From the NCBI RefSeq assembly GCF_036370855.1, contig NW_026991372.1, positions 186,001 to 250,000 of the forward strand: DNA of 64,000 nt, written 5' to 3'. Positions 20,101 to 62,380 of this stretch are shown here, in pieces; positions within the stretch are counted from its first letter, which is position 1, and each line of letters begins with the position of its first letter. The notes beneath the pieces were generated by a model. It was not told the DNA's origin. It saw nothing but the letters and a program-made list of their open reading frames with translations, and made no database searches. This DNA is from Dromaius novaehollandiae (taxonomy: Eukaryota > Chordata > Aves > Casuariiformes > Dromaiidae). The position numbers and the translations under genes are program-made.

Positions 20101-20383
20101 GAACCCCTGGGACAACAGCCCAAGCTCGCTGTAGTGCCTGGCTCCTTCCTTGGAAGACGAAGCTGTGATCGTCTGCGTCCCACGCAGCGCACTCACTCAT
20201 CGTGGTCTTCCCCCCAGGGCAGGGCTGAAGGCCGGCGATGTTGTGCTGGAGATCAACGGGCAGGCTTCGCGCCGCGCAGAGGACGTGTACGACGCGGTAC
20301 GGACGCAGCAGAACCTGGCCTTGCTGGTGCGGCGAGGCTACGACACTCTGCTGGTGAGTGTCGTCCCTGAGGTCACGGAGTAG
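11155..20383 (+). CDS. HTRA2: HTRA2 (Omi), mitochondrial serine protease
   Basis: Exons: 11155-11510, 13523-13727, 13798-13992, 14250-14282, 14767-14875, 15545-15614, 19814-19909, 20218-20383; total 1230 nt, 409 aa plus stop. Order: a mitochondrial-type Ala/Arg-rich leader with an 11-Pro run (residues 34-44), a transmembrane segment (about 49-65), then AVPA at 82-85, the IAP-binding tetrapeptide exposed after maturation (AVPS in human), the conserved [19 protein letters not shown], and the trypsin-like domain with His in IVTNAHVV, Asp in VADIATIKI and Ser in [11 protein letters not shown] (a 33-nt exon of its own). The PDZ domain follows ([20 protein letters not shown]) and the end VVPEVTE is nearly identical to human. 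Established role: quality control in the intermembrane space and release during apoptosis to antagonise XIAP. Shorter than human (458 aa), mainly in the leader. Intact. Confidence 0.97.
12060..12785 (-). mobile_element. CR1 LINE fragment, antisense, in HTRA2 intron 1
   Basis: About 720 bp resembling antisense CR1 ORF2 (reverse transcriptase end). Landmarks on the plus strand in order: 'cctgtcgaggtccctctgag', 'ccattaataaagatgttaca', 'aaaagccttcctaaagttga', 'atttgcccttggtaaatctg', 'gtgacgtttgcc', 'gaccttttaaagagcatcga', 'cccgtggacttgtg'. The same order occurs in avian and other sauropsid CR1 copies. Coding capacity is lost. It is much of the 2-kb first intron. Confidence 0.88.
15620..19190. other. 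HTRA2 intron 6 (4.2 kb), mostly unique sequence
   Basis: This is the only large intron of HTRA2. It holds a short direct repeat at about 17990-18060 (two copies of 'gtgccactagtgctggctcc' and the following bases) and the CR1 piece annotated separately. No exon-like frame with family similarity and no RNA gene was noticed. Confidence 0.5.
19195..19520 (+). mobile_element. CR1 LINE 3' fragment, sense, in HTRA2 intron 6
   Basis: Starts with 'ctggagtgctgcgtccagct', a hallmark of the CR1 3' half. Then follow a decayed 'gagagaatccagaggagcag', a 'gggattgtttagtctaga' block and a 'gagatgtaggttgacaccag' block. The order matches CR1 in sense orientation. Diverged, with internal deletions; the upstream limit is uncertain and may extend to about 18780. 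Confidence 0.7.
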
Positions 20384-22688: not shown

Positions 22689-25600
22689 CTAGGAGATCTG
22701 GTTGTTGAGCTGCCCCGGGTACTGCTCGAGCCGCTTGCTGGCCTCCTCGCTCAGCGCGTCGCCTGCGCCAGCGCCGGGCAGCGGCTGTCGGCTCCGCCAG
22801 CCCCACAGCCTGCCCGGCCCCACTGCAGCCCCACAGCCTGCCCCAGCCCCACAGCCTGCCCGGCCCCACTGCAGCCCCACAGCCTGCCCCAGCCCCACTG
22901 CAGCCCCACAGCTCCCCACAGCCTGCCCCAGCCCCACACCTGCCCCAGCCCCACAGCCTGCCCGGCCCCACTGCAGCCCCACAGCCTGCCCGGCCCCACA
23001 GCCTGCCCGGCCCCACTGCAGCCCCACAGCTCCCCACAGCCTGCCCCAGCCCCACAGCCTGCCCGGCCCCACTGCAGCCCCACAGCTCCCCACAGCCTGC
23101 CCCAGCCCCACAGCCTGCCCCAGCCCCACAGCCTGCCCGGCCCCACTGCAGCCCCACAGCCTGCCCCAGCCCCACAGCCTGCCCGGCCCCACTGCAGCCC
23201 CACAGCTCCCCACAGCCTGCCCCAGCCCCACACCTGCCCCAGCCCCACAGCCTGCCCGGCCCCACTGCAGCCCCAGCCCCACAGCCTGCCCGGCCCCACA
23301 GCCTGCCCCAGCCCCACTGCAGCCCCACAGCTCCCCACAGCCTGCCCGGCCCCACTGCAGCCCCACAGCTCCCCACAGCCTGCCCCAGCCCCACTGCAGC
23401 CCCACAGCTCCCCACAGCCTGCCCGGCCCCACTGCAGCCCCACAGCCTGCCCGGCCCCACAGCCTGCCCGGCCCCACTGCAGCCCCACAGCTCTCCACAG
23501 CCTGCCCCAGCCCCACTGCCCTACTGCAGCCCCACAGCCTGCCTGGCCCCACTGCAGCCCCACAGCTCCCCACAGCCTGCCCCAGCCCCACAGCCTGCCC
23601 CACAGTGCCCCACACCTGCCCCAGCCCCACAGCCTGCCCACAGTGCCCCACAGCCTGCCCAGCCCCACACCCTGCCCCACAGCTCCCCACAGCCTGCTCC
23701 ACCCCCTCAACCTGCCCCAGCCCCTAACCTGCCCAGCCCCACTGCATCCCGCAGCCCCATCGTTCCCCAGCACCGCCGTCGGGACGCCCCACACCGCCCT
23801 CGCCCCAGCGCCCCCCCCGCGCCGGCCCCGGCCGTTACCGATGTGGCAGCTGTGCACCCAGATGCGGTGCCCGTCGTACTTGCAGTTGCATTTCATGGCG
23901 TTGTTGGTGAAGTCGCTCTCCGCCACCTCGAAGTTGGGGTTGATCACGACCTGTGGAGCACGGACGCTGGAGGTGGGGGGGCACAGCCCCGTGCAGCCCC
24001 ACGCCGGCTGGCCCCAGCGGAGCCCATAGCTGGGCACGGCTCCAGCGGCCCCGGCCCCACAGCACTCAGCCCTGCAGCCCGGCCGGGGTCAGGGGGAGCC
24101 CCAGGTCCGGCCAGGGCCATTCGGGACGCGGCTCTTCCCCGCCGGGAAGCCTGGCCCCGGGCCGGTGGAGGCAGCCGGCTGGGAGCCGGGGCACGGGCGC
24201 ACGGGGGGGCTGCGAGCAGGGTGGGGGCCCCGGTGGCAGCACCTGCAGGATGTAATTTCCCGGCTTGACGTCGGTGATGTCGATCCACTGGCAGTCGATG
24301 TCGTGGCGGTAGAGGTCCCAGCAGCCCACGGTGATGCCCTGCTCCCCGAAGTTGGCGCACTCGTAGCGCTTGGCCACGTCTGCGGGCGGGAGGGAGCGCG
24401 GCTCAGCGCGGCGGCACCCGGCACCCGGCACCCGGCACCCGGGCAGGGCTGCGCCCGGGGCCCCGTGGCGCCCACCTTCCTCGCACTCGGTGTCCTCGAG
24501 GCAGAAGCTGGCCTTGTGGCCCTCCGCCACCTTGGTGCCGTTGGGCGTCAGGATGTCGTAGTGGGTGAAGATGTCCATGCTGTGGTAGTGCCTGCAGGAG
24601 CCGCAGCCGCCCTGAGCCTGCTGCACCGGGGCGGCCGAGGGGGACGGGGACGGGACCCCACAGAGCCAACAGGAGACTTGTCCTGGCCTGCGGCAGGTCC
24701 CCCCAACCCGCCGCGCTCGGGGAGGGTCCCGCAGCCCCGGCCCTGGGGCGGCAGCACTGCAAGGTCGGGCAGAGCTCTGCCCTGCCCTGCGACGGGACGA
24801 GGCTGCCCCCGGCCAGCGGGACGCCCCGGCCGAGCCGGGGGGCTCATCTGCGTGGCACCGCCCGCAGACCCCTCCTGGCAGCCCCAGAGCCAGAGCCAGA
24901 GCCAGAGCCGGCCCTGAGCCGAAGCAGGCAGGACTGGGCAGCCACAGCCCCCAGGCTCAGCCGCCCCACCAGCGTCACCCTCACCGGCATCGCCCTCACC
25001 GGCATCCCCATCACCGGCATCCCCCTCACCAGCATCACCCTCACCGGCATCCCCCTCACTGGCATTAGCATCACCATCACTGGCATCCCCCTCACTGGCA
25101 TTAGCATCCCCCGCACCGGCATCCCCCGCACCGGCATCGCCCGCGCCCTCTCCCGCCCGCCGGGCCAGGCCGAGCCGCGCACGCACCGGTGGCACTCGTG
25201 CCAGACCCAGGAGTGGCGGCCGGCCTTGGGGCGGAAGTCGGCGCGGCCGTTGTTGTGGATCTGGGAGGAGAAGCGGAGCAGGCGGCGGTGCCCGTAGGGC
25301 CAGTTGGCGAGGCGGGCCGAGCTGGAGAGGCAGTTCTCCTCCGCGGCGCAGTACAGCATGTGCAGCGGCCGGTCCTCGATGTACGCCGTCTCCTGCACCA
25401 GCGGGGCGTGCAGCAGCAGGTCGGAGGCGGCTGGGGAACACAGGGCCGTTCAGGGACAGGCGGCCGCTCCGCCGGCACGGGGGACGGCAGGGATGGGCGA
25501 GCACCCTGCGGCGGCAGGACTGGGCCAGCAGCCGCCCTGCAGAGCCACGGCCGGGCGAACGCGTGCTCACCCCACCAGCGGGGCAGGAGGTGCCCCCGCA

Positions 25601-32738: not shown

Positions 32739-33049
32739 GGCAGCTGCCCTGCGGGGAGACGGCGTCAGGGGCGGGCGGCCGCGCGGCAGCCCCAGCCCCG
32801 GCCCCGGCGGGATCCCGGCTCCCCGGCCCCAGACGCGTCCCTGCTCCCCGCGGCCGCCCCGGCTCCTCTCTCCCAGACCCAGGCGGGTAAAACCCCCCGG
32901 TCGCACGCAGCTCGGCTTGGCACTGCTGCGGCGCTGCTCCGCGCCCCGGACCTGCCGGCAGGGCTGCTGCAGAGCTGCCAGCGCCCGCTGCGACCTGCGT
33001 CCTGCTGCAACCCGCGTCCCGTCGCGACCCGCGTCCCGCTGTGACCCGT

Positions 33050-36200: not shown

Positions 36201-36219
36201 GGCCACGCGCAGCCCCGGG

Positions 36220-36495
36220 CACGCACACCCCGCACGCACACCCCGCACGCACACCCTGCACAGCTCGTGTGCACACCCCGCACGCACACCCCGCACGCAC
36301 ACCCCGCACGCACACCCTGCACAGCTCGTGTGCACACCCCGCACGCACACCCCGCACGCACACCCCGCACACGCCACGCACACCCCGCACGCACACCCCG
36401 GGGCACGCACACCCCGGGGCACGCACACCCCGCACGCACACTCCACGCACACCCCGGGGCACACACACCCCGCACGCACACCCCGCACGCCGCCC
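36220..36495. repeat. Tandem repeat of CGCACGCACACCC type
   Basis: Ten- to thirteen-bp units ('cacgcacaccccg') with interspersed 'ctgcacagctcgtgtgcaca' and 'ggggcacgcacacc' variants. It lies just downstream (for LOXL3) of the CpG island. Confidence 0.92.
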
Positions 36496-37720
36496 CGCGC
36501 TCAGCGAGGCCACAGAGCTGCCCGGTGCCGCCCGCCGCCCCCGCAGACTCTCCCGACCGCGGCCCGGGAGGCAGCGCCAGCCGCGCGGCCCCGGCCCCGA
36601 CGCCGCGGGGAAGGGCTCGGTGCACGGCCCGGCCCGACAGCCCGGCCCGGCGCACGCGGCCCCCGCGGCCGCCCCGCGCGCTGCCCCGGGCGGCGCCGGT
36701 ACCTCTCGTCCACCCGCGCGGCTGCGGCGGCTGCGGCGGCGCCGAGCGAGCGCGTCCAGGCGAGTGCGGGCGGGGTCGGGCCGCCCCTCCCCGCCCCGGC
36801 CCGCCCCGGGGCCGCCCCCCGCCGCCGCCCGCCCCCGGCCCCGGCCCCGAACAGCCCCGCTCCCCGCGGGCTGCGCTGCCGCGGGCGGACCCGGAGCCGC
36901 CCGGGGGCCGCGGGGCTGCCCAGACCCCCCCGGCGCTGCTGGGGCCCCCCCGGCCGGAGCCCCGCCGGCCCCCGGGGGCACCGAGGGGCCCGGGGAGAAA
37001 CCCTCGGAGCCCCGTTCGCTCCCTGCGCCGCTCCCTCCCGGCGCTTTGCAGGCTGCGGCGGGGAGGCCGGGTCCCCCCGGCCCCCCCGGCCCCCCCGCAC
37101 CGCGGCGGCGGGGCAGAGCCGAGCCCCTTTGGCGGCGGCCGCCCCGGGAGCCGAGGGCCCGGCGGTCGCGGCCCGGCAGGCCCCGCCCGTTCCTCGAGCG
37201 CGGCGGGCGAGGCGGAGGCGGAGGCGTGCGGGGAGCCGCGGCGGCGGGCGGGCGCGGGGCTGCCGGGAGGAAGCGGCGCCATCCCGGCCCTTCCCCGGGA
37301 GACGGACCGCGGCCAGAGCCCAGAGAGGCCTCTAGGGCCGAGGGCAGCGCGTCTCCGGGCCGCGGCGGCGGAGCCCGGGGCCACCTCGCCGCACCGCGTG
37401 CCAGCCCGGGGCGAGCCAGCCGGGCACCACGGGGGGAGCGGGACGGGCAGCCCCCGCCACGCGCCCACGGCCTCGCGGGCGGTCACGAGCGCGAGGGGAC
37501 CGCGGGGAGCGGGGGCGCCGGGGGCAGGACGGCCACGAGCCACCGGGGTTGGCTGCTGCGCTCGGACGGCAGCCGCGCTGGAGCGGGCGCTTCGCCCCGT
37601 GCCGCCGCCCCCGAGCCCGGCTCCCGCGGTGCCGCCGCTCACGCAGGGACCGCAGCGCCCGCGTCCCCTCCTCGCGCGCGGCCCTGGCCGCCACAGCCGT
37701 CCGGGGCAGGTCCCGCCGTG
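36496..37720 (-). promoter_or_regulatory. LOXL3: CpG island and probable LOXL3 non-coding exon 1
   Basis: Dense CpG without methylation decay. On the minus strand a donor, GACGAGAG/GTACCGG, at 36703/36702 could end a 5' untranslated exon running from about 36780. The first coding exon of LOXL3 has a clear acceptor ten bases before its ATG (32749-32750), so an upstream exon must exist, and mammalian LOXL3 also begins with a non-coding exon. Exact start unknown; assignment to LOXL3 rather than to the OGA-like locus is inference from orientation. Confidence 0.45.
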
Positions 37721-38169
37721 CGCGATGCCCTTCAGCCCTTACAGCCCCCCCCCCCCGCCCCATTCCCCATCGCCAGCAGCAGCCGTTTGAACCAGCCACA
37801 GGCCAAACTGTCTTTTATGCGGCCGCGCTCTGCTCTTTGCTCGCGTCCCCGGTTCTCACTGCGTGCCACTGTATTTCCTGCGCCCGCGGGCGATGCAGCC
37901 GGTGCTGGGGGGGCTGGGCCCCCCCCGCGGCGCCGCGGGGGCTCAGAGGAGCCGCCCGAGGAGGCGGGGGCCGGGGGGGCCGCCCCAGGCCTGGGGCAGG
38001 GCCTCGAAGCCCAGCTCGTCCCAGAGCCTCGGCCGCTGCCAGTGGGCAGCACCGACCCGGCAAAACACCCCCGGGAGCCTGCGGGGAGACGGGAGCGGTC
38101 AGGGCCCGGCACCGAGACCCCGCGCCGGGGAGCAGGGCTGGGGCCGACCCTCGGGGACACGCGCGGCCG

Positions 38170-38960
38170 GGGGGTCGCAGTGGGGTCCCCTGCTCCGTGC
38201 CAGGGCAGAGCCCAGGGGGTCCCCGCTCCGCGCCAGGCACCGGGGGTCCCAGCTCCGCACCAGGCACCGGGGGTCCCCGCTCCGCACCAGGCCCCGGGGG
38301 TCCCAGCTCCGCACCAGGCCCCGGGGGTCCCCTGCTCTGCACCAGGCACCGGGGGTCCCCACTCTGCACCAGGCACCGGGGGTCCCAGCTCCGCACCAGG
38401 CACCGGGGGTCCCCTGCTCTGCACCAGGCACCGGGGGTCCCCGCTCCGCACCAGGCACCGGGGGTCCCCTGCTCTGCACCAGGCACCGGGGGTCCCCGCT
38501 CCGCGCCAGCCACCGGGGGTCCCCTGCTCTGCACCAGCCACCGGGGGTCCCCACTCTGCACCAGGCCCCGAGGGTCCCAGCTCTGCACCAGGCACCGGGG
38601 GTCCCACTCTGCACCAGGCACCGGGGTCCCCACTCTGCACCAGGCACCGGGGGTCCCAGCTCTGCACCAGGCCCCGAGGGTCCCAGCTCTGCACCAGGCA
38701 CCGGGGGTCCCACTCTGCACCAGGCACCGGGGTCCCCACTCTGCACCAGGCACCGGGGGTCCCAGCTCTGCACCAGGCCCCGAGGGTCCCAGCTCTGCAC
38801 CAGGCACCGGGGGTCCCACTCTGCACCAGGCACCGGGGTTCCCACTCTGCACCAGGCACCGGGGGTCCCAGCTCTGCACCAGGCACCGGGGGTCCCCGCT
38901 CCGCACCAGGCACCGGGGTCCCAGCTCCGCACCAGGCCCCGGGGGTCCCCGCTCCGCACC
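38170..38960. repeat. Minisatellite in the last OGA-like intron
   Basis: About 28-bp units: 'gcaccaggcaccgggggtcc' plus 'cagctcc', 'ccgctcc', 'ctgctct' or 'cactct'. Around 28 copies lie between the last two exons. Confidence 0.94.
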
Positions 38961-39203
38961 AGGCACCGGGCGCAGGGGCCGGCTGGCTCCGGGGCGGCCG
39001 GGGGGGCAGCGGGGAGGGGCCGCGCGGGCAGACGGCCAGGCTGCGGGCGGCCCCCGCGTGCAGCCCCGGCGGGGCCGTGCCCAGCTGCACCAGCGAGGGG
39101 AAGCGGCGCAGCACGGGCAGCGGCCCCGCCGGCGCCTCGGCCCGGGGGAAGCGCAGGGCTCCCGCACGGCGCCCCTCCGCCCCCCGCCCCCCGCCCCGCT
39201 CAC

Positions 39204-39420
39204 CTGCGCCGCCGCGGGGCCGCCGGGGCCCGGCTGCCGCGGGAAGCGCTGCCGCAGAGCGCTGTCCTCCGGCACGGACGCGCGGGGCCCCGGCCCAGGA
39301 AGCTGCCCAGCAGCCTGCCGCCGCGGCGGGTGCCCCTGAGCGGGGCGCGGAGCCCGGAGCCCGGAGCCCGGCCCGGGGGACCCCCAGCCCGCGGCCTCCT
39401 CCCGCCGCAGCACCCGGCAC
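39204..39420 (-). other. Possible additional OGA-like exon region
   Basis: A consensus donor (GCGCAG/GTGAGC at 39204/39203) suggests an exon just upstream in the gene. One frame reads VPEDSALRQRFPRQ and ends at the donor, but I could not match it convincingly to the OGA segment expected here ([20 protein letters not shown]). Kept as unresolved. Confidence 0.3.
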
Positions 39421-40130
39421 CGCTGGGCCGCCCCCGAGACCCCCAGCCCCCCCGAGACCCCCAGCCCCCCCGAGACCCCCAGCCCCCTGAGACCTCCAGC
39501 CCCCCGAGACCCCCAGTCCCCCGAGACCCCCAGCCCCCCCGAGACCCCCAGCCCCCCGAGACGCCCAGCCCCTCTGAGACCCCCAGCCCCACTGAGACCC
39601 CCAGCCCCACCGAGACCCCCAGTCCCCCGAGACCCCCAGCCCCCCCGACACCCCCAGCCCCCCGAGACGCCCAGCCCCACCGAGACCCCCAGCCTCACCG
39701 AGACCCCCAGTCCCCCGAGACCCCCAGCCCCCCCGAGACCCCCAGCCCCCCGAGACACCCAGCCCCCCCGAGACCCCCAGCCCCTCTGAGACCCCCAGCC
39801 CCACTGAGACCCCCAGCCCCTCTGAGACCCCCAGCCCCACTGAGACCCCCAGTCCCTCTGAGACCCCCAGTCCCTCTGAGACCCCCAACCCCCCGAGACC
39901 CCCAACCCCACTGAGACCCCCAGCCCCACTGAGACCCCCAGCCTCACCGAGACCCCCAGCCCCCCGAGACCCCCAGTCCCCCAAGACCCCCAATCCCACC
40001 GAGACCCCCAGCCCCCCGAGACCCCCAGCCCCCCGAGACGCCCAGCCCCACTGAGACCCCCAGCCCCACCGAGACCCCCAGTCCCCCCGAGATGCCCAGC
40101 CCCCCCAAGACCCCCAGCCCCCGCGGACAG
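39420..40130. repeat. Minisatellite of GAGACCCCCAGCCCC units
   Basis: Sixteen- to eighteen-bp units, about 40 copies, differing at 'cccccc/cactga/ctctga'. It lies within the OGA-like locus where the exon for the LVGGLLSLSLDYCF segment should fall; that exon is not visible. Confidence 0.95.
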
Positions 40131-40624
40131 CCTGGCAGCAGGTCCGTCCCCACCACCGCTCCCGTGGCCACCGACGGGGCACGCACCCGGCTGGGATGCG
40201 CGGGGGCATCAGGAGGGGCCGGCTGGCCACCGCCCCCCACCGCGCTCAGTGGGGAGCCCCACGGCCGCCACGTCTCACCTGTCCCCGAGCAGGTCGGGGT
40301 GGGCCGAGAGCACCTCCGCCGCACGGGGGTCACAGTCCAGACTCTCCCGGCACAGTCGGTAAAGCTCAGCCTGGAAGGGGCAGACCCAGCTCAGACCCAG
40401 CTCTGCTGGCCCTGCCCCAAGCCCTGCCCCACCGCTGCCCCCCGGCTCCCGACTCCACGGCCACGGCCCCCCCCCCCCCCCCGAGCACATGGCACCCGCA
40501 GCATCCCCCCCGCCTCCTCCGCGAGCAGGGACCCGACCAGGGCCGCAGGCTCCAGCACTGCCCAGCCCGGGGGAAGCTTGTGCTTCGGCTTTCTGGGGGT
40601 GCCGACGTCTGGGTCACGCAGCCG

Positions 40625-41065
40625 TTGTGCAACGCACGCCACGTGCAACACACACCACGTGCAACACACGCCACGTGCAACAGACGCCACGTGCAACACA
40701 CGCCACGTGCAACACGCGCCACGTGCAACACGCCATGTGCAACGCACGCCATGTGCAACACGCGCCACGTGCAACGCACGCCACATGCAACACGCCACGT
40801 GCAACGCACGCCATGTGCAATGCACACCACGTGCAACACGCGCCATGTGCAACGCACACCACGTGCAATGCACACCACGTGCAACACGCGCCATGTGCAA
40901 CACACGCCACGTGCAATGCACACCACGTGCAACACGCGCCATGTGCAACGCACGCCATGTGCAACACACGCCACGTGCAACGCACGCCACATGCAACACG
41001 CCACGTGCAACGCACGCCATGTGCAATGCACACCACGTGCAACACGCGCCATGTGCAACGCACGC
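40625..41065. repeat. 16-bp tandem array of CACGTG E-boxes
   Basis: About 27 units of ACGCCACGTGCAACAC type. About 16 contain a perfect CACGTG palindrome; most others have CATGTG or CACATG, as expected from deamination of the central CpG. It lies within an intron of the OGA-like locus. Confidence 0.95.
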
Positions 41066-41089
41066 CGTGCTGTCGTGCTGGGGCTCACT

Positions 41090-41898
41090 GCCGCGGCGCA
41101 GCAACGCTCTGAGCCAGGAATTCCCATTCCGGCCAGGCTTCCCAGGAAGCCGCGCTGGGCTCCGGGCCGGAGCATGCTCAGAGCAGCCCGGGCCGCAGGG
41201 ACCCGGGTCCCGCAGCGCGGCGTCTGCCCAGAGCAGGCGCAGAGCAGCCCCGCGAGGCGCCCGCCGCGGCTGGACGCGGTGACAGCAGCGAGGACGGCCG
41301 GGTGCGAGCGGCGCTGGGAGCAGCGGCTGCCCGGAGCACCGAGCGCGGGCAGGGCGGCCGCCGCTCAGCTCTGCGCTCACAGCCGGCCCAGCTGCCGAGC
41401 TGAAGTTTTTCTCAGCGTTTCGCTGGAGATCGACTTTCAGCTCGTTAAGGTTTGGCTGGAAAAGCTGCAATCTGACAACGAGCAGCTGAGAACAAGCTCT
41501 CCCAAAGGGAACCGCTGGCAGCGGCAGGCTGATGTTACGAGCCCTGCTCTCGCCTGCCTGCAGCCCTGCCGGGCCGTGCGCGGGCGCTGCAGCTCTGCAC
41601 CGCGGGTGCTGCGTGGCAGCCGGTGCTGTGCTGTGACCCGCCGCGCCAGCGCTGCCCCTAGACCCGCCCCGGGCGCGGGCCCCCCCGGTCCCCGGGCTGC
41701 AGCGGGCGCAGCGGGTACAGCCGGCCGGCCGGGAAGGGAAGCGGTCGCGGTGGTTCCCCACGGGCAGCAGCGCCCGCAAGCGAGGAGGGCGCGGAGGAAC
41801 GGGCCCCGGGGTCCCCGTGCTGCAGCCCCCCGGGGGGGTGGCGACGGCACCGCGGCAGCGCTGGGAGCCCCCCGCCCACGGGACGCGGCCGCTCTCAC
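41090..41898. other. OGA-like intron sequence without a recognised exon
   Basis: Unique GC-rich DNA. The OGA segment [20 protein letters not shown] to RPYFPKDE should be encoded between 40371 and 41898 but was not found. Confidence 0.4.
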
Positions 41899-42424
41899 CT
41901 GCAGCTCCCCGCAGAGGCCCCCGCGATGGGCCCAGGGCTCGGCGTCCCCCCCCGGGGACGGAGGGGCGGCGATGCTCCGGCACCCTGCGGGCAGCGGGAG
42001 ACGGGCGCGGGCGAGGTGGGCGGCGGGCCGGGACCACCAGCCGCCCCGGGAGGCAGCGCCGGGTCCCGGCCGGGCGCAGCCGGGGGTCCCGCAGTCAGGA
42101 GCTCGCGGGCCGCGGCGGTGCTCACAGCCGAAGCAGCTCCCGCGGGCGCTGGCGGGGCGAGGGTCGCGGCACAGCCGGTCGCCTGCAAGCAGGGGAGGCC
42201 GTGAGCCCGGGCGCCGCGGGGCCGGGGGGGCCGTGTGCCCAGCCACCGGACGAAGGCGGCGGCGGCGGCAGCACGTTGCGGAGGTCCCAGAGGTAGGGGT
42301 GGAGGTCGCAGAGCAGCGAGCGCCCGGTGCGGCCCACGAAGCGGCTGTGCAGGCGGCACGTCTCGGCGCAGGGCTGCTGGAAGGTTTGGGCACGGCCGCG
42401 CCTCTGCTCGCCCTGCCGCGGGCA

Positions 42425-42915
42425 CCGGCCACGGTGAGCAGGGACCGGCCCACAGGCGCATCCGCACTGCGCTGCCCCGTCCACACCGCCCTGTCCACAC
42501 GTCCCCACCCACGTCACCCCATCTGCACTGCCCCGTCCACACCGCCCTGTGCATGCCACCCCACTCACACTGCCCCATCCATGCCACCTCCTCTGCACCA
42601 CCACATCTGCACTGCCCCGTCCACACCGCCCTGTCCATGCCACCCCACTCACACTGCCCCATCCATGCCACCTCCTCTGCACCACCACATCTGCACCACC
42701 CCATCCACGCCGCCCTGTCCACGCTGCCCCATTCACACTGCCCCATCCATGCCACCTCCTCTGCACTGCCCCGTCCACACCGCCCTGTGCATGCCACCCC
42801 ACTCACACTGCCCCATCCATGCCACCTCCTCTGCACCACCCCATCCACGCCGCCCTGTCCACGCTGCCCCATTCACACTGCCCCATCCACCCCCCCCCGT
42901 CCATGCCATCCCTGG
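42425..42915. repeat. Minisatellite of CCATCCATGCCACC units
   Basis: Modules 'cactgccccatccatgccac', 'ctcctctgcaccac' and 'gtccacaccgccctgt' form higher-order units of about 57-110 bp. It begins 12 bp from the exon ending at 42412. Confidence 0.93.
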
Positions 42916-43124
42916 TGCCACGGTGCCTCACCAGGCGCCTCGGGCGCTGCGGCTGGGCTGCCCGTGCCGGGGTGGGTGGCCTGGAGCCACTGGAAGTGCC
43001 GGAGGAGACGCGGCGCCTGGGGGCCGCGCTGTAGGGGAGGGGAAGAGCTCCCCCAGCATCCGGGCCTCGGCCAGCGGCAGCGGGGCCGCGGGGCTGGGCT
43101 GGGTCACAGCCCCGCCGTGGACTG

Positions 43125-43345
43125 GCGCCGTGGGGCCAGGGCTGGTCCCAGCCCCATCGCTGAGTGGTGCCGTGGGGCCAGAGATGATCCTGACCCCACT
43201 CAGAAGCAGTGCCGTGGGGCCTGGGCTGGTCCCAGCCCCATTGCTAAGCGGTGCCGTGGGGCTGGGGCTGGTCCCAGCCCCATCGCGGAGCGGTGCCGTG
43301 GGGCCTGGGCTGGTCCCAGCCCCATCGCGGAGCGGTGCCGTGCAG
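43125..43345. repeat. 48-bp minisatellite in an OGA-like intron
   Basis: About five copies of a unit with 'gtgccgtggggcc', 'gggctggtcccagccccat' and 'cgcggagcg'. Inverted within the unit are GGGGCTGG and CCAGCCCC, so each copy can form a small hairpin. Confidence 0.92.
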
Positions 43346-43984
43346 CTGCAGACGGTCTCCGGGGCTCCTGGGGCCTTGCCGTCCTCCGCTGCGTGGGGCA
43401 GAGCAGGGGAGGGCTCATGGCTGGTGCGCGCGTCCCGGTGCAAAAACCAGGCTTGTGCCTTGCCTGACGCCTCTTCCAGAGCCACGTCGGGGCCGGCTCC
43501 CTCCTGTCCCGCCGAGCCCGTGGCTGCGGGGCAGCAGTGCGGGAGGGCAGGGAGCCGACTTCGCTGCCCCTGCTTGCAGCAACCCCCATCGCGTCACCTG
43601 CCTCCAGGCCGCCAAGCGCCATCCCGCCGCGCCCAGCCGAGCGCACGCCGCTGCGCCGGTGCTTCTGCCGGGAGCCTCCCGGCTCAGGGCCCCCGGCGCC
43701 CGTGCCGCAGCCCCAGGAGCCCCTCCACGCCGGCAGAGCAGGGCCCGTCCCGCCCCCGCGGAGCCCCTCCGGCACCCCGGGGGACAGAGGCCGCACGGCG
43801 CGAGCCCACCGCCCACCCGGCTCCAGGCGCTGCCGGTTCATCTCGGCCGCCCAGGCCCGCGCCAAGGCCTCCTGGGCGTCGCAGCTGCCCTGCTCCGGGC
43901 CCGGGAGCTCCCTTGGGGCTGCAGGCGATGCGGCCTGTGCAGCTGCTGCAGCCCGGTCCTGTCCGAGCCCTGAGACCCCCAGGG

Positions 43985-44290
43985 CTACTGCAGCGTGCGG
44001 GGGGAGCGGGGGGACCCGGGGGGAGCGGGGGGACCCGGAGGGAGCAGGGGGACCCAGGGGAAGCGGGGGGACCTGGGGGGAGCGGGGGGACCCAGGGGAA
44101 GCGGGGGGACCCGGGGGGAGCGGGGGGACCCAGGGGAAGCGGGGGGACCTGGGGGGAGCGGGGGGACCCAGGGGAAGCAGGGGGACCTGGGGGAATCAGG
44201 GGGACCCGGGGGGAGCGGGGGGACCCGGGGGGAGCGGGGGGACCCAGGGGAATCAGGGGGACCTGGGGGAGCAGGGGGACCTGGGGACCC
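43985..44290. repeat. Purine-strand repeat GGGGGGAGCGGGGGGACCC
   Basis: About 17 copies of an 18-bp, almost entirely G/A-containing unit separate the third and fourth visible OGA-like exons. It occupies the place where the human gene has the exons for the rest of the catalytic domain. Confidence 0.94.
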
Positions 44291-44319
44291 GGTGGGGACC
44301 GCGCGGCCGCGGGAGGCAC

Positions 44320-45556
44320 CTGTGGGGCAGGGGAGGAAGACGGCGGGCCGGCCCAGCTCGCGGCACAGCTCGTTGGCCAGGGAGGCCTGGGCCCGCGCCG
44401 GGGAGGGGAGGGGGTCCCCGTCGGCCCGGCACAGGCGGGGGGCCACGTCGTCCAAGAGCAGCGCCAAGCAGCGGCGCCCGGCCGCGGCCGCCTGCGGGCA
44501 CAGGGCTGGTGGGAGCCGGGAGCCGAGCGGGGCCGCGGCGGCCTGGCGCAGACCCTCGCCCCTCGTCGTGCAGCAGCTCGGGGCCGCGAGCCCTGGGGAT
44601 CGGCCCACGGTACCTGCCTGAGCTTCCGCCGCAGCAGCGGCCGATCCCCACCGCTGGAAAACACCATGTCCCGGCCCGCGGAGACGGCGAAAACGAACTC
44701 CACGCCGCGCTCCCGGGCCGCCGCGACGGGGGACCGCAGCTGGGCTGGGGCAGAGCGGAGCGGCTGCCGTGAGCGCGGGAGGAAACCGGGAGCACGGAGA
44801 GGCGGGAGAGCGTCCGGGCCGGGACAGACGGGACCCGGGTCACCGAGGCCCCGCAAGGGCCCGGGAGCCCTGCCAGGGCCTGAGCCCAGCCTGGTGCTAG
44901 ACCCCTGCGGGTCTGGTGCTGGGGGCTCCTGACACTGGGCAGGGGCTGGGGGCTCCCAGCAATAAGCAGGGTCTGGGGGGTCCCTGCAATGGGCAGGGTC
45001 TGGGGGCTCCTTGCAGCGGGCAGGGGCTGGGGGCTCCCAGCAATAAGCAGGGTCTGGGGGTCCCTGCAATGGACAGGGTCTGGGGGCTCCTTGCAGCGGG
45101 CAGGGGCTGGGGGCTCCCAGCAATAAGCAGGGTCTGGGGGTCCCTGCAATGGACAGGGTCTGGGGGCTCCTTGCAGCGGGCAGGGGCTGGGGGCTCCCAG
45201 CAATAAGCAGGGTCTGGGGGTCCCTGCAATGGACAGGGTCTGGGGGCTCCTTGCAGCGGGCAGGGGCTGGGGGCTCCCAGCAATAAGCAGGGTCTGGGGG
45301 TCCCTGCAATGGGCAGGGTCTGGGGGTCCCTGCAGCGGGCAGGGCCCTGCAGGAAGAGCGGTGCCAGTCGGGCCGAGCACGGCGGAGGTGCGGGCCGTGC
45401 ATCGCCCCCGGAGCAGGGACACCGGCAGCCCCCGCCCTGGGGCCCAGGGAGCCGCTACCTGCCTCCCGCTCGGTGCAGGGCTCCCGCCAGAGCAGCCGGT
45501 GCTTCGGCTCGTCCTTGGGCGCGTGCACGTAGCAGCCGAGCCCCCGGCGCCCCAGC
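44320..45556 (-). CDS. OGA-like catalytic-domain exons
   Basis: Three exons (45556-45459, 44744-44614, 44491-44320) join cleanly in phase. They read CYVHAPKDEPKHRLLWRE (human TYLYAPKDDYKHRMFWRE, including the substrate-binding lysine), AQLRSPVAAARERGVEFVF then AVSAGRDMVFSS (human EFIYAISPGLDITFSN), RRKLRQ, and CLALLLDDVAPRLCRADGDP with ARAQASLANELCRELGRP and LPCPT (human FALLFDDIDHNMCAADKE, AHAQVSITNEIYQYLGEP, FCPT). The two catalytic aspartates of GH84 enzymes are retained in LLLDDV. Identity with human is roughly half over this block. The alignment is from memory and by eye. Confidence 0.85.
44910..45350. repeat. About 80-bp minisatellite next to the first visible OGA-like exons
   Basis: Five to six near-identical units combine 'ggctcccagcaataagcagg', 'gtctgggggtccctgcaatg' and 'ctccttgcagcgggcagggg'. 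Very little divergence, so recent. Confidence 0.94.
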
Positions 45557-46014
45557 CTGCGCGGCGAGGACGGGGTCACGCCGGCACCCGAGGGCCCTTC
45601 GCAGGGAGGTGCTGCCGGCCCGCGGCACCCGGAGCTCCCCAGCGCCCTGGGCCCTCTCGTCCCCCCGCGCCGCACCGTCCCCGGGCCTCCCGCTCCTGCT
45701 CACGCCGGGCGCCCGGACGGCAGAGTCACGGCTGCTCCCTGCGCACGCGGCTCTGCCCTGCGCACGGTCGAAGCAAAGGCACGAATCCCGCCCGCGCTGA
45801 GCCCCACGGCTCGTGTGCAGGCAGCAGTGCCGCACACCCGGCTGCGACGGGCCCCCGCACGGGCAGGACGCTGCCCCGGGAGATGCCCCCCCGCCGCAGA
45901 GCCGCCCGCTGCAGCGCTCCGCGCGGTTCCTGGGGCCTCCTGGGGCTCTTTCGGACCCCTGCGCGTCCCCATGTCCCCTGCCCGTGACAGCGCCGGCGCC
46001 TGACGTGCTGCTGC

Positions 46015-48065: not shown

Positions 48066-48069
48066 CTTG

Positions 48070-48905: not shown

Positions 48906-50750
48906 CGCTGCCTGCACTGCCGTCGGCACGCGTCCGGGCGGTGAGGGCCGCGCTGCCCACGCTGGGCGCTCCGGCAGGTCGAGGCGGTGCAGCTCATCGC
49001 ACCGATGGCCGGTTGGTTGGGCACCGGCCCCCAGGAGACCGCTGTCCCTCTGCGGCAGAGACCAGCTCCACCCTAACGTGAGCCCCATAAGCAGCCAGCG
49101 ATGGGTCCTGCCCACGTCACGTCCGCTGCGGGGACGCGCGGGGACGCGCAGGGCCGGCGCCCCATGGCGCAGGGGTGCTGGGCTGTGACGAACGCAGCTG
49201 CTGAGGGACCTCGGCGCTTGCTCGGCCTGAAAGGCCACCCGCGCCCGCGAGGGAGCCGTGTGAACGTGCCGCACAGCTCGGCCTCGCAGCCGGCACGGGC
49301 CGCGGCGTTCGGCGGCACCACTGCCCGGGGCCGCGCAGCCGGCACGGCTCGCGGGGGGCGGAGGGGCAGCTCCCCCCGCCAGGGCAGCGTCCTGGGGACC
49401 GGCTTCCAGCACCTCCCTTCCCACGTGGATCGGACTTCTCGTTTGCAGCCCCGGGCCCTCCTCCTGCTCCCTGAGGCCCCTTCTGCGCACGGGCGGCTGC
49501 AGCCTGCGCCAGCCGTGCCGTGGTCCGGGCAGGGGAGCTTTCCTGGTGCCTCCGCAGGCGGCATTTCCAGGGCCCCGTAGCCCCCGCCGCCCTCTCCAGG
49601 CCTTCCCCGCTGCCGTTGCTCCTGCCACAGACCAGGCAGCCGGAGCTGATCCGTCCCCCCCAGCCCCCGCGAGTTTGCACCGTGCCGTCGTGCAGCCCCA
49701 GCCCCCTCTCCCGGGGCTCCCTCCCCTCGGGTGCCCGGCCCAGCACATCTGGCTGCAGCTGGGCTACGGCAGCATCCCAGCACGGCCCGTCCTGCCCGGC
49801 CACCCGCCCCGTCCCGGGCACGGGAGGGCCTTCCCGGCGGCCCGGGGCTGCAGGAGCGCTGCGGGAGGAGGGCCGAGCTCCGGAGCCCTGCGAGCAGCAC
49901 CCGAGGGCAGGGTCAGCTCCGGGAGGAGCCTGGGCCGCCCTTGGCCACCATCTCCCCGCGTCCGGACGCTCGGCCTGCCCGGGGGTGCCAGGGCCCGGAG
50001 CTCCCGCCGGCACACGGCAGAGGGGCTGGTGCACACGCCTGCCGTGCGGCTCGTCAGCCCGTCGGGGGCTCGTGCCTCGGGGAGCAAAACGCGGGGTACT
50101 TGCTGTTGAAAGAGAAGTTTCCTCTGCTCCATAGACCACGGTCTCCCCTAGAAACCTGCAGAAGGACAGGAAAAACGAGCCAACATGCAGTTGTCAGTAA
50201 CTCCTTAAAACAGTGTGTCTCCGACCTGTCCCCAAGCTGCTGCTCCTCACCCAGAGGTGCCCCAGCCGTTCACCTCCAGATACTCCAAACGTCTGTCACC
50301 CCACCACGATCTCGCTGGGCCACGGCATCGCAGCAGCTGGGTGTAGGACGTCCGTACTGCCACCCTTCCCGGAAAGAGGCAGCGGGAAGAAACTGCACGA
50401 GGTGGCCCGCGGCCTGGGAGGGGGAGCTTGCACAGCAGGGTCCGGGGGCGCAGGAGGCTGCTGAGGGCTGGCTGGGTCCAACCCGCCCAGCGCGGTCTTG
50501 GGCGCACCAAAGCAGGGAGCTGCGGCTCCACCACTCTCCTGCCTTCACTGCAGAGACCGGCTCTGCGGTTCTGGGTCACCTGTGCATCCCTCAGCGCCTG
50601 TGTGGCCTCAGGCTGCGTCAAGCAGCGACCGCTCCTGCAGGGGTTGTGAGAGCTGCTCTTGTCCTCAGCCGCTGCAGAGACTCAAACCGCGCCAAGGCTG
50701 CGCTGACCCAGCTCCCTCTGCCCGTGCCTGAACCGTGCAGGGCAAGTCTT
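48906..50750. other. Intergenic GC-rich unique DNA, no gene recognised
   Basis: Several overlapping open frames of 150-400 codons occur on both strands. None shows family motifs or plausible splice structure. A transcript here cannot be excluded. Confidence 0.4.
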
Positions 50751-54425: not shown

Positions 54426-54639
54426 CGCCGCCTCCCCGACACCCGAGGCCCCGGGCGCTGCGCCCGCCCGGCCCGGCGCCCTCTGGACGGACGGGGACGG
54501 CCCCTGCGGCGCCCGGGCGGGGGGACCGGCCCCGGCCCCGGCCCCGGCGGCACCTGCCTTCCACCACGGCGCGGAGGAAGCGCGGCCGCCCCTCCATGCC
54601 CGCGGGCCGGAGCCGCGGAGCCGGGCGCTGGGGCCGGCG

Positions 54640-56428: not shown

Positions 56429-59400
56429 ATGGACCCGCCGGCCAAGGAGGGGCTGCTCTTCGTGCAGCAGAGCCACAAGTTCGGCGCCAAGGTGGGGACG
56501 GGGCCGGGGACGGGGACGGGGACGGGGGGCGGGGGTCGCGGGCCGCGCCGGGGGTCGGGCCGCCCCGGCTCCTGCCCGGCGGCGCGGCCGCGATCGGGGA
56601 AGTGGGGCCGGGGCCGCCGCCCGCCCGGGGCCCGGCGGGGCGGGGGCGGGGCGGGGGGCGCCGCGGGGGCGGGGGGCGGCGGGCCGGGGGTGCCGTCTCG
56701 CCCCGGCCCCGGCCCCGTCCCCGTCCCCGTCCCGCCGTGACGGCCGCCCCCGCAGCGGTGGAAGAAGAACTGGTTCGCGCTGTACCCCGCGAGCCAGCAC
56801 GGCGTCGCCCGCCTCGAGTTCTTCGAGTGCAAGGACCCGGCGGCGCCGCCCGAGCGCCTCGGCACCCGGCGGCTGGACAAGAAGATCGTGCGCCTGGCCG
56901 ACTGCCTCAGCGTGGCCCCCGCCGCCGAGAGCGGCCCCCGCGACGGCCCCGCCGCCTTCTGCCTGGAGACCAGCGCCAGGAGCTACCTCCTCGCCGCCGA
57001 CAAGCAGCAGAGCGAGGAGTGGGTGGCCAAGCTCTGCGAGATCGCCTTCCCGGTGAGCGCGGGCCGGGGGCCGGGGGACGCGCCCGGAGCGGGGACCCCG
57101 GCGGCGGGAGCCCATCGGATCGGCTCCGGGACCCCGGGTGCCCCCGCGGCCGTGCCGGCGGCTGGGCGGGTCGCGCTCGCCCGGTCACGGGACTCCCCGG
57201 CGTGTCCTTAGGTCACTTCTCGTTTGCAGCTCGCGCGTCGAGGCCTGGCTGCCGTCCCCCCGCCCAGCGCCTCCCCCCCGGACCCCGGCCGGCGCGGGCC
57301 GAGGGCTGGTGGTCCCATCGCCGCCGGCCGCTCTCGCTGCCGGCCCCGCTGGGGAGCACGGTCTGTCCCGCGGCTCTTCCCGCGCGCGCGTGGGCCCCCG
57401 GGAGGGCAGAGTCCTGCGGAGGCGAGTGGCCTGCGGGTGCGGCCTGTGAAGCTCCAGTCCCAGGGTCTCCCCCGAGGCCCCACGTTTGCTGAACGTGACT
57501 TGTCTTAAGCCGTTTTTGTCCCTACCTCCCTCTCTGCTGCCAAACCAGGCGCGTTTGTGCAGCGGGTGCCGGCTGGCCAGGCCGGGGAGCACGGCTAGGG
57601 CACTGGGAATCGCTCCTCGTCCGTGCCGATGGCCGTTTTTCCCTGGAAAGGGCTTGTGGGGCCGAGCTGGGAGCCCCAGGCGCACCTTCGCGGGGAGGGG
57701 GGCAGCGGCAAGGCAGGGAGCATCTGCGTGGAGCAGGAAGGCGCTCGCACGTTCCCTCTACGGCCGCTGTGAGCTGGATGCTTGCGCTCCTGGAGCACGC
57801 CGACGGCTCGGGAGGAGGTTAGCGAGACGCCGGGAGGGCGGTGTGTGCTGTAGAAAGGCCCGGCCTGCAGCAAGGGGCACGGGAGCCGCGCCTGGCCTCT
57901 CTGCAAGGGGCTGGAGGGGAGGCAGGGAGCGGGCTGTGATTTCTGATCACCAGCACGGGGAGCACGATTTTGTTGGAGATCAGTTGCAGTTCAGGCCGGG
58001 ATTAGTTTTTCTTGTGAAGACAAGGGAAGACACAGCAGCCCAAAGAGCCCCGAAGGGCCCTGGCAGACTCGCTAGCTGTCGACTTCCCGATCCCAGGCTG
58101 GAGCCCGTCTGTGTCAGATGCTTTAGCTGAACAGGAGCCCTCAGCTCTAGGACACTGGGTTTCAGCAGCCCCCGTCTGACAAGGAGGCAAACGAGAGGGC
58201 TTGTTCGGGCCTTGCGTCCTGTTAAGAAGCCCGCTCGAGCAGTTTTGAATGGAAACTGCGACAATTTGATTTCTACAAGACGCATATTCTGCTGCAGCCC
58301 CATCCCATGTGCTTTGACACTGAGACACGTTTTTCGGCTCCTGTCTGGGTACAGATCCTCATGCAGCGGTGCAAAACCTGCTGAAGCTGCTCTCGCAGGG
58401 CAGCTGCGAGTCTGATTTGCGTGGGGCTTCCCTGGAGGGGACCGTTGCTCCCCTGTGGTAGCGCGCGGGGTGCGTCCCCCGCGCAGAAGCGCCTGCTGCC
58501 GGGGCCGGGCCCTGCCCGGCGGAGTGTGCGCGCTGCACTTTCAGTTCTGCGTGCGCTAAATGCAGAAGTGCCTGCTTCCCTTCTGCAGCTGTGCACCGTG
58601 ACGCTGGCACCGTCCGCCTGCCCGGGCGCGGGGACCCTCGCGCTGCTGCTCGTCTCCCGTGGCCCCGTGCCCGCGCGGCGGGAGAGCGCAGCCGGCCCGC
58701 GCGGCGCTCCGGGGGCTGACGGTGCCTGCGCCGGAGCACGTCCGTGGGGCGGCAGAGCTGTCCTCTGCGCCCATAGCCCCCTGCTCCCCTCCTGCGCCCG
58801 GGCCGCGCGCGGGGCCGGGGTCCTGCCGGGACCCTTCGGGCACAGCCGGGCCCTGTCTGCTGGCCCTGGGCAGCCCGGGGTCTGTCCCTGGCTGCGCAAC
58901 GGGAAGGGCTCGGAGCGGCTGGAGACCGGCCGGGCTGGGCCCGTGGGGAGGGCGAGCGGAGTCGCGGTGCGGGAGGTGGCTGCGGGGGCCCTGGGGGCAG
59001 CGTGGGACAAGGAGCTGGGGCTGATCTGCTCTCCCTGGCAGGGAAACGGCCCCAGCGATGCCGGCACGGCAGCCCGGCGCGGCAGAGAGGGCGGCGGGGA
59101 GGGGCCGGCCCTGGAGATGGCCGTGAACTCCATCTACTACTCGCGGGATGAAGGTAGGGGCTGCCGCGGGGCCGGGCTCGGGCTCCCTTCCCAGGGCCGT
59201 GTCCTTGCACCGTCCCCGTGCCGGGGGCCTTGGAGGCCGGACTGGGCCTCGCCCGGAGCTGGGGGTGGTGTTTCACCTCCATCCCTCCCCTGTCCCCACA
59301 GCGAACGTCTTCTGGGTGACGGTGCAGCGGACGGAGGCTGCGGAGCGCTGCGAGCTGCGTGGCACCTACGTGCTCAAGGCTGAGCGCGACAGCCTGGTCC

Positions 59401-62380
59401 TCCAGGACCCGCAGACAAAGGAGACCCTCTACGTCTGGCCCTATCGGCTGCTTCGGAGATACGGCCGGGACAAGGTGGGTCGGGAGCCTGCGTGCCCCGG
59501 GCCGAGGCCCGTCGCCCTGCAGACTTTCCGTGGCGGCCGTGCAGCCGGCCCCGCCACGCGCTGCAGCTGCCGCAGCCCCTGGTGACTGCGGAAAGGGCAG
59601 CTCCCTTCCACAGCGGCGCCCGGGATCCTCAGCCTGCCCCCGGCTCCCAGCCTGTGGCGGCGAGTGTCCCCGTGTCACTGCGCGGGAGCGGGGGCCGGCA
59701 GGATGGCCGTCCCTGCGGAGGGCAGGCCGTGCAGAGCCCTCTGCATGCGTCCTCGCCCCGCTCCCCTCGGGACTGTTGCAGCCCCGCCTGCCCCTCTGCC
59801 AGGCACCCCGCAGCTGGGGGGTCCCCTGTTCCCCTCTGCCGGAGATCCCTGCCCCGGGCCAGGGTGCCCGTGCCCTGCTCCCGCGCTCTGCAGGCAGCTC
59901 GGCTCTCCGCAGCCCTGGCTCCCTGTGCCCCTTCTGCCCTGGCTGCAGCCCGTCTCTCCCGAAGGACGGCGATGCGAGCAGGTCGGGCTGCTTGAGACGT
60001 CAGTTATTCTAGATTCGTTTCCCTTTCTGGGTGTGCTGCTCCGCGCTCGGCCGACCCACGCAGGGCTGTCCCCTCCCCGGTGTCCTTCGGCGAGAATCCC
60101 CCGGTCCTCGTGCTGCTGCCGTGGGGGTGAGGCGCCTGCCCCGCGGGCCGCGCTGCCGGCGGAGGAAGTGGTCTCCCCGGCACTGCTTATAGAAGCAGCG
60201 GCGTCAGCTGCAGCCTCCGCGTGCTGCTTTCTGCGGCGCTGTGTGAGAACAGAAGTGGAAACTGTCTGCGCGACTCGCGGGGAGGCATCTGGCCCGTCTG
60301 CGGGGCCTGCGCTGGGGGCAGCTCAGAGCCACGTGGTGCGAGGAGCAGATGCGGTGGCTGCGCCCGCAGCGACAGCTTGCCTGAGCTTGGCTTGGGAGTG
60401 TTCAGACCCGGACCAGCTGGGAAGCAGGGAGCCAAGGTGCAGTCGGGTCCTGCCGTGGTTGCTCCTGGAAGCTGTGTCTTGGCTTTATTAGGAGCGTCTC
60501 AGAGCAAGCGGGGTGCCGCACGTGAGAGCACTAGTAAGGCAGAAAATCTCACCTGGATTCAGGGACTGAGGCTCAGGAAGGGTCTTGCCGTCTGCAGGTG
60601 GGAACCTGCTCATGGATGTGTGTCTAGGAAGCACAGCCTTGCTGTGAAACGCCTCTGTAGAGCACTGTATGCCACTAACAGAACAGTGCTTGCAAGGCAA
60701 ATTCTTTGCTCGTTGGCCTTTGGTAGCCAAGCTGCTGCTTCTGGCCTTTCTCCGTGGAAAGCCCTCTTCCTCCGGATTGCTTCCCTTCTGCCCGACTAAT
60801 GCTGACTTACCCTTCTGCCCATGAGAGTTTCTCCTGCTGAGCTGCTCCTCATCTCGTCGCCCTGCTTTGTCCCTAGCCCCAGCTGCACGTTACCTCCTAG
60901 GCGCTGGGGTGCCGGCTGCCGACCCTGCCGGGGAAGCTCAGCTAGGGCAGCTCATCGCCAGCAGGATCTGCCGCTCGGGGCCTGCAGCGTTCTGCAGCGA
61001 CGTCCCCTCCGGTGTGTCCCGCTCCTGTTTCACGGCTGTTCCAGGCTCCTGGGCAATGCAGCCCCTCCCCGCGCGGGCAGAGGGGTGCTGCGCAGCTGCA
61101 GAGCGCGCCGTGCCGTCAGCGCAGTGCTCTTCGCGGCCGCCCTCGTCGCCGAGAGCGGAGGGAGCAGCGGTGAAGCCGCCTTGCTGGACGTGCAGGGCTG
61201 CTGCTGCGGCCACCCGCTCTGCAGCAGGAAGCAGCGTCGCGCGCGAGGCGCTGGGCGGAGGGTGCCGGCGGGACGTGACCCTTGCCCTTCCCTGCAGGTG
61301 ATGTTCTCCTTCGAGGCTGGCAGGCGCTGTGATTCCGGCCCCGGGAACTTCACCTTTGAGACCAAGCAGGGCAACGAGATCTTCCGCCTGGTGGAAGCCT
61401 CCATCCGGGAGCAGAAAGCGCAGGTGGAGGAGAATCGGCAAAGCTGTGACTCGCTGGAATCGGACAGCCCCAGCGTGGCGCTGATCCGCCAGGCCCTGGC
61501 CGACTCCCTGAGCCTCGAGCTGCCCGCGGAGGGCGACAGCACCGCGGTGCCCAAAGCGGGGCTGCCGCCCAGGCCCGGCGCTGCGGCCGAGGAGAGAGAT
61601 GCCGCGGCTCTGCTGAAGACCCGGACTCTGCCGGAGCCCCCCGTGCCGCAGGCCAAGCCCGTGGTCCCGAGCACGCCCCCGCGCTCCCCTCTGCCCAAAG
61701 TGCCCCGAGCTGCGCTGCCGGCGGAGGACCCCTCCAGCGTGTACTCGGAGCCTCTGGACTCGGTGAAGGGCCTCCGGTCCTGGCCGGACCCGCTCTACTC
61801 GGACCCCGTAGACAGCAGGCCCGGGGGCAAGGCCAAGGTGCCCGGCGGAGCCCTGGAAGAGACAAAGCTCCGGGTGCCGGTGCCGCTGTACACGTACGAG
61901 CAGGTCCGGGCTGACGGGGGGAGCCAGGCGCTGGCGCAGAGGGAGCCCATCTACGACGAGCCCGAAGGCCGTGCCCCCCGCTCCCTGCCCCCCTCCGCTT
62001 CCATCTACGATGAAGCACGGCCCACGGACGAGGCCTGGCGCACCCAGGGCCACGACGGCAAGGGCGGCTACGAGTATCCCTACAACCCCAGCACGGACGA
62101 CTACTCGGTACCTGCCTTCAAGAGCAAGGGCCCCAAGCCGGTGCCTGCCCCCAAGCCCCAGGCAGCGCTTATCCTTAAAGCCGCCGAGAGAAGCGTGGAC
62201 CCCGGCAGGCGACGGGGGAGCCCCGCGCCAGAGAAGACGGTCGTCAAACCCAGCCTTAACAGCAGCAACAACAACAACGTGGAGGTGCTGTACAGCCAGG
62301 TGGTGAAGGGGCCGAAGGAGGAGCAGTCTGTGGATGAGAACAGCTTGTCACCTGTCTACGAGGACCTAGGGGAGATATAA
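56429..62380 (+). CDS. DOK1: DOK1, docking protein 1
   Basis: Exons: 56429-56491, 56756-57052, 59042-59153, 59302-59474, 61298-62380; 1728 nt, 575 aa, intact. The N-terminal PH domain ([20 protein letters not shown] to [14 protein letters not shown], about residues 8-120) binds membrane phosphoinositides. The PTB domain ([54 protein letters not shown], about residues 158-262) binds phosphotyrosine motifs of receptors. The tail carries docking tyrosines: [45 protein letters not shown]. The YSEP/YSDP/YDEP sites resemble those that recruit RASGAP and NCK once phosphorylated. Established role: adaptor that dampens Ras/ERK signalling below tyrosine kinases, inside the cell at the membrane. Longer than human (481 aa), mainly in the tail. 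The end EDLGEI differs from human. Confidence 0.97.
59475..61297. other. DOK1 intron 4, no extra feature
   Basis: 1.8 kb of unique sequence; an open frame continuous with exon 5 upstream of 61298 is excluded because the CCCTGCAG acceptor joins GRDK to VMFSFEAG exactly as in the family. Confidence 0.6.

Follow-up and report, generated by a model that had tools for sequence, protein, structure and literature searches.

Accounts of O-GlcNAc cycling in vertebrates usually include a single hydrolase gene. In the placozoan Trichoplax adhaerens, the available text of a published report describes two O-GlcNAcase (OGA) genes, both giving functional proteins, and contrasts them with the splice isoforms of vertebrates (PMC12494797). 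Another paper (Wotton et al, 2008; PMC2446394), in its available sections, mentions 'a further Mgea gene' that chicken has together with Aup1, Htra2 and Loxl3; for both chicken and teleosts, 'Mgea2' is entered at the Lbx2/Tlx2 locus in its Table 1. The window analysed here, a stretch of 64,000 nucleotides (positions 186001-250000 of contig C132, in an assembly of 1.468 Gb and 271 contigs), contains an OGA-like locus on its minus strand. We propose that this locus is, in all likelihood, what decay has left of a second O-GlcNAcase gene, probably as a unitary pseudogene; many other birds and the alligator have kept this gene with the active-site residues of human OGA, and the best reading is that the copy was lost in one palaeognath-like lineage. 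The likeness to Trichoplax is the presence of two OGA genes in one animal; the difference is that both placozoan genes are functional, whereas the window copy appears dead. A second OGA gene in vertebrates is already on record, and what is new is that this copy looks dead.

The homology of exons 3-5 to OGA is far beyond chance. Exon numbering follows the species' own OGA gene, which was modelled by the same spliced alignment as the OGA-like locus. Joined, exons 3-5 give 133 amino acids that match human OGA over 128 ungapped residues (E 2.5e-30) and the Pfam family PF07555 (NAGidase) at 7.9e-23 and 81.6 bits, with a cutoff of 25, the match spanning only positions 25-139 of the 295 in the profile. 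Such a profile match had been proposed as a check in the original prediction, which was made from the letters of the window and described a second O-GlcNAcase gene; the peptides it quoted were all located on the minus strand and in the order that it stated. Spliced alignment places further exons in order, down to a stop ending near 37943, and the features of the locus are as follows.

54558..54597, minus strand: exon 1 remnant, 13 residues plus (G); conserved phase-1 donor position reads GC (spliced alignment with rhea, ostrich and chicken O-GlcNAcase-like proteins).
50104..50155, minus strand: exon 2, GF*GRPWSMEQRKLLFQ; in-frame TAG at 50150-50148; GC donor (tblastn 1.2e-06).
45459..45556, minus strand: exon 3, LGRRGLGCYVHAPKDEPKHRLLWREPCTEREA (homology search and spliced alignment).
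44614..44744, minus strand: exon 4, AQLRSPVAAARERGVEFVFAVSAGRDMVFSS...LRQ (homology search and spliced alignment).
44320..44491, minus strand: exon 5, with the catalytic aspartate pair (LLLDDV) (homology search, spliced alignment and residue counts).
43998..44300, no strand assigned: tandem array, some 15 copies of a 19 bp unit, located in the gap left by exons 6-7 (human residues 218-345).
43818..43901, minus strand: exon 8, 3' part, GPEQGSCDAQEALARAWAAEMNRQRLEP (spliced alignment).
42932..43388, minus strand: exon 9, linker with a 14-amino-acid repeat and the start of the stalk; 5' boundary uncertain; frame break near 43041, between LGELF and PPLQRGPQ.
42239..42412, minus strand: exon 10 (stalk), DLHPYLWDLRNVL, then AAAFVRWL; frame break at about 42268-42255; conserved donor position GC, in poor context.
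42126..42182, minus strand: extra stalk exon, DRLCRDPRPASARGSCFG, in most OGA-like proteins listed and absent from human OGA.
41899..41984, minus strand: exon 11, CRSIAAPPSPGGDAEPWAHRGGLCGELQ (tblastn 1.3e-08).
41665..41773, minus strand: exon 12 remnant, ALLPVGNHRDR...PFPAGRLYPLRPLQPGD; acceptor AG position reads GG; internal deletion and frame change; 3' end approximate.
40279..40370, minus strand: exon 13, AELYRLCRESLDCDPRAAEVLSAHPDLLGDR (tblastn and spliced alignment).
39204..39314, minus strand: exon 14 remnant, pseudo-acetyltransferase domain, LLGSFLG then degenerate (spliced alignment).
39020..39156, minus strand: exon 15 remnant, PLPVLRRFPSLVQLGTAPPGLHAGAARSLAVC (tblastn E 0.095); ends approximate; no usable flanking splice sites seen.
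37943..38078, minus strand: last exon, VFCRV...LGFEALPQAWGG...LLGRLL and stop (E 2.4e-05 with the rhea protein); reading on from the conserved phase-1 acceptor gives a different frame.

The extent of 37943..45556 given in the original prediction does hold exons, but the locus is longer, with exon 2 (50155-50104) and exon 1 (54597-54558) lying outside it. The introns that can be read agree in position and phase with those of the species' own gene. In human residue numbering, those of phase 0 follow residues 160, 603 and 690, those of phase 1 follow 116 and 661, and those of phase 2 follow 83 and 753. The window copy resembles canonical OGA (MGEA5, GH84) in exon order, in these introns, in its stalk and pseudo-acetyltransferase remnants and in the aspartate pair, the counterparts of D174 and D175 both being kept in exon 5; it differs in standing at another locus and in being identical to human OGA at 188 of 500 aligned sites (38%). 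We take D174/D175 to be the catalytic pair, and Y219, N280, D285, Y286 and N313 to be active-site residues. A GC donor (GCAAGT) opens intron 2 in both paralogues (50103-50098 in the window and C6:32782194), and it has possibly been kept since before the OGA/OGA-like duplication. The linker in exon 9 contains a 42-bp coding tandem repeat at 43074-43342, which gives the 14-amino-acid unit PTAPLSDGAGTSPG; the motif recurs in the OGA-like proteins of kiwi (9), ostrich (3) and rhea (2), and the chicken and alligator proteins that were checked lack it. An Rfam scan at gathering scores gave 0 matches.

The lesions of the window copy are numerous. The TAG in exon 2 replaces a tyrosine that is conserved in all 15 OGA rows of our alignment and in all 17 OGA-like rows reaching the site. 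The original prediction had the exons follow human OGA: their order stands, but several can be read only by a change of frame (HPYLWDLRN then WLG, for example), and the run is interrupted, human residues 218-345 (exons 6-7) having no significant match within the locus (best E 0.51 and 2.6, tblastn). The spliced aligner merely forces these residues through the tandem array at 43998-44300, which occupies most of the gap, and when the rhea OGA-like protein was searched against the genome, with E allowed up to 1 and 51 of 82 candidate places scored, exons 6-7 were matched by canonical OGA only. The missing exons would carry most of the active-site and substrate-binding residues (Y219, N280, D285, Y286 and N313), at which the window row has gaps. 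The frame is broken in exons 9, 10 and 12, the homologous frame of the last exon differs from that entered through its conserved acceptor, the acceptor place of exon 12 reads GG, exons 1 and 10 have GC at their donor positions, and exons 14 and 15 are only partial. With the TAG and the frame breaks, no continuous open reading frame crosses the locus.

A search with the joined pieces of the window copy yields 163 proteins at E of at most 0.01, and the 120 listed carry 98 species names, those of 97 birds and Alligator mississippiensis, mostly under 'protein O-GlcNAcase-like'. Exons 3-5 alone, as query, found no homologue at E 0.001 among 222 candidates, which we ascribe to the candidate length limit of that search. 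All four active-site motifs tested occur in 112 of the 120 proteins, the other 8 being without at least one, and a motif typical of the extra stalk exon (42182-42126 in the window) occurs in 89. Among the 22 OGA-like proteins aligned, the counterparts of K98, D174, D175, T250, W278, N280, D285, Y286 and N313 are identical in all and that of Y219 in 21; the catalytic pair is also D in 15/15 OGA rows. The apparently intact avian and crocodilian proteins are therefore predicted, from these kept residues, to be active O-GlcNAcases. The window copy is like them in its exons, its extra stalk exon and its grouping with palaeognaths, and unlike them in its stop, missing exons, frame breaks and absence of constraint. 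Apparently intact orthologues in relatives and no other copy in this genome are in keeping with a unitary pseudogene.

The absence of constraint is drawn from a test in which the window copy was compared with 37 rows, namely the 22 OGA-like proteins, chosen by hand from the 120 listed, and 15 OGA proteins (14 from the 120 listed of 2521 matches, plus human OGA). Columns with a gap in any row, or at which the palaeognath rows disagreed, were dropped, and the window residues were limited to recognisable exons, a limit that favours apparent conservation. The window differs at 27 of the 122 columns invariant in all 37 other rows (22%) versus 64 of 257 variable ones (25%), with p 0.61. Each of the 22 OGA-like proteins, taken as controls, shows constraint (p at most 0.011), with changes at 0-2 of 122-124 invariant columns in birds and at 8/130 in the alligator. 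In a quick tree with Shimodaira-Hasegawa-like approximate likelihood ratio (SH-aLRT) support, the window copy groups with the OGA-like proteins of ostrich, rhea and kiwi (support 99) and, on a long branch, with kiwi (86); its branch measures 0.49 versus 0.04 for kiwi. The size of the neutral change, read against avian substitution rates, suggests that some tens of millions of years, as a rough figure, have passed since the loss.

The protein of the relatives that keep the gene, since it shares its catalytic aspartates and sugar-binding residues with human OGA, would be expected to hydrolyse O-GlcNAc. In this genome, the stop in exon 2, the exons 6-7 not found in the one assembly, the broken frames and splice sites, and substitutions falling equally on invariant and variable sites together imply that no hydrolase would be made, and the activity probably falls entirely to the canonical OGA, which lies on another contig. 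The claim of the original prediction that the locus is a gene in this genome is thus not supported.

The canonical gene was found with human OGA as query, at C6:32778231-32801945, where 15 matches fall, 13 of them at 79-96% identity and the other two at 52% and 61%; its frame is open throughout the part read, and it sits between KCNIP2 and FGF8, a setting that matches the human and chicken Lbx1 locus as given in the available text of Wotton et al (PMC2446394). The remaining 5 human-OGA matches in the genome (E 1.2e-5 to 3) all lie on C132 within the OGA-like locus. Since a normal OGA stands elsewhere in the same genome, the OGA-like locus is an old paralogue, and its distinctness from the species' own OGA, which the original prediction had put forward, is borne out, as is its place between LOXL3 and DOK1. 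Along the window stand HTRA2 (+), LOXL3 (-), the OGA-like locus (-) and DOK1 (+), in that order, and the window copy thereby shares the neighbours HTRA2 and LOXL3 with the chicken Mgea2 of the same paper's available sections (PMC2446394). The flanking genes are placed as follows.

13560..20380, plus strand: HTRA2 exons, beyond LOXL3; matched pieces without stops.
23837..25428, minus strand: LOXL3 catalytic exons; matched pieces without stops.
56741..62377, plus strand: DOK1, open reading frames with PH and IRS/PTB domains.

Several observations weigh against one part or another of this interpretation, and the first of them concerns age. The OGA/OGA-like pair probably arose in the early vertebrate genome duplications, the synteny being observed and the date drawn from it: the two paralogues occupy two paralogous regions, with LOXL3, HTRA2 and DOK1 beside OGA-like and KCNIP2 and FGF8 beside OGA, these being the Lbx2 and Lbx1 paralogons of the available parts of PMC2446394. 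We consider it unlikely that the pair is instead a duplicate of the sauropsid or amniote era, as opposed to an ohnologue of the 2R duplications. An approximately unbiased (AU) test on 6 of the 22 OGA-like rows and all 15 OGA rows rejects neither a grouping of OGA-like with bird OGA (p 0.33) nor one with tetrapod OGA (p 0.54), and only birds and one crocodilian appear among the matches listed, although that range describes 120 of 163 matches. The same test rejects a grouping with sauropsid OGA (p 0.003), the two genes lie in the two paralogons, and Table 1 of PMC2446394 extends Mgea2 to the Lbx2 loci of teleosts. A very long branch separates the OGA clade from the OGA-like clade, and in the quick tree two rays branch first within OGA (support 78), as a split before jawed vertebrates would give; the sample was of vertebrate OGA and of bird and alligator OGA-like sequences. 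Because the AU test leaves the bird and tetrapod groupings unrejected, we base the ohnologue date on the paralogons and on the teleost Mgea2 of the 2008 paper. The whole-genome-duplication origin proposed in the original prediction is accordingly the most likely one by synteny and by the available text of that paper, while the protein tree by itself gives the duplication no date.

A second doubt is whether the lesions are real. It is very improbable that the gene is alive and evolving fast, its apparent lesions being errors of assembly or consensus in a very GC-rich, repeat-rich contig and its exons 6-7 having dropped out of the assembly. The GC content of 0.72-0.79 over most of the locus, the tandem repeats and the array standing where exons 6-7 are missing are in keeping with such errors, and in a single assembly consensus error could account for any one lesion; the GC donors of exons 1 and 10, moreover, are not decisive as lesions, because intron 2 opens with such a donor in OGA as well as in OGA-like. 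Consensus error is insufficient as a whole explanation, because 22% of the invariant sites have changed, as often as variable ones. Matched HTRA2 and LOXL3 pieces on the same contig read cleanly, exons 6-7 were not found elsewhere among the candidate places scored, and the TAG sits in an exon of moderate GC. A living gene in this genome was rejected on the lesions and the constraint test.

It is more improbable still that a truncated, non-enzymatic protein of exons 3-5 is made under selection. These exons remain open and ungapped, with canonical donors and acceptors and with D174/D175 retained, which counts little because the 75-77% GC there makes open frames cheap. In this stretch, where the alignment is safest, the window is changed at 12 of 56 invariant and 22 of 64 variable sites, a contrast in the expected direction that leans, non-significantly (p 0.16), towards remaining or past constraint; in chicken, 0 of 56 invariant and 10 of 64 variable sites are changed, and half a barrel is unlikely to fold. 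That the locus is a recent copy of this species' canonical OGA, whether processed or segmental, has next to no probability, being ruled out by introns at OGA positions and phases, by 38% identity to human OGA compared with the 79-96% of 13 of the 15 matches of the species' own gene, by synteny and by the orthologue family in other birds. The remnant of a second O-GlcNAcase gene remains our interpretation of the locus.

Tandem arrays with a period of at least 10 cover 44% of the OGA-like span and 24% of 22000-37000 on the LOXL3 side, as against 2% of DOK1, 1% of HTRA2 and 0.1% of canonical OGA; most introns of the OGA-like locus (37943-54597) have an array of their own. They resemble the intronic 'sequence stuttering' described, in the available text of PMC12954441, on chicken dot chromosomes, where coding regions are said to be intact, whereas the window array stands where two exons are gone. 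The chicken OGA-like protein listed comes from a 90.9 Mb contig, despite this likeness to the stuttering of dot chromosomes. Repeats derived from exons, the 'exon stuttering' of the same text, were also considered: when 10 arrays were compared with the two neighbouring exon ends, 0/20 comparisons traced an array to an exon, and the best was equalled by 8/200 shuffles, so exon-derived arrays have no support. It can tentatively be hypothesised, though we think it doubtful, that birds use two O-GlcNAc hydrolases of which the second has been overlooked, and that in this lineage the second enzyme was lost when exons 6-7 were removed by runaway intronic stuttering, which would give a natural knockout and the first case of stuttering destroying coding exons.

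As a pseudogene, the window copy is ordinary. It is comparable to STK33, a conserved vertebrate gene that neognath birds have as a unitary pseudogene, but with the opposite distribution, palaeognaths keeping STK33 according to the available text of PMC4509753. The vertebrate gene itself is not new, being already represented by 'Mgea2' in the accessible sections of PMC2446394 and by proteins of at least 98 species names. In a full-text search with most subscription papers and bioRxiv outside its scope, 'Mgea2' occurred in that paper only, 'mgea5l' and 'O-GlcNAcase-like' in none, and the papers listed included no other on a second OGA gene of vertebrates; the available text of PMC12954441 and PMC4290089 names neither LOXL3, MGEA5 nor DOK1. 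The interest of the locus, which we put as moderate, lies in the near silence of the papers searched on a second avian O-GlcNAcase gene and in the lineage being a likely natural knockout. It exemplifies the loss of a likely ohnologue in a GC-rich, repeat-filled region, and it cautions that exon-like peptides at 75% GC need not mean a living gene. A second O-GlcNAcase gene is present under at least 97 bird species names, with the active-site motifs in 112 of the 120 proteins listed, and is hardly mentioned in that literature; a lineage with a dead copy is likely a natural knockout, and would offer a comparison for the role of the second enzyme.

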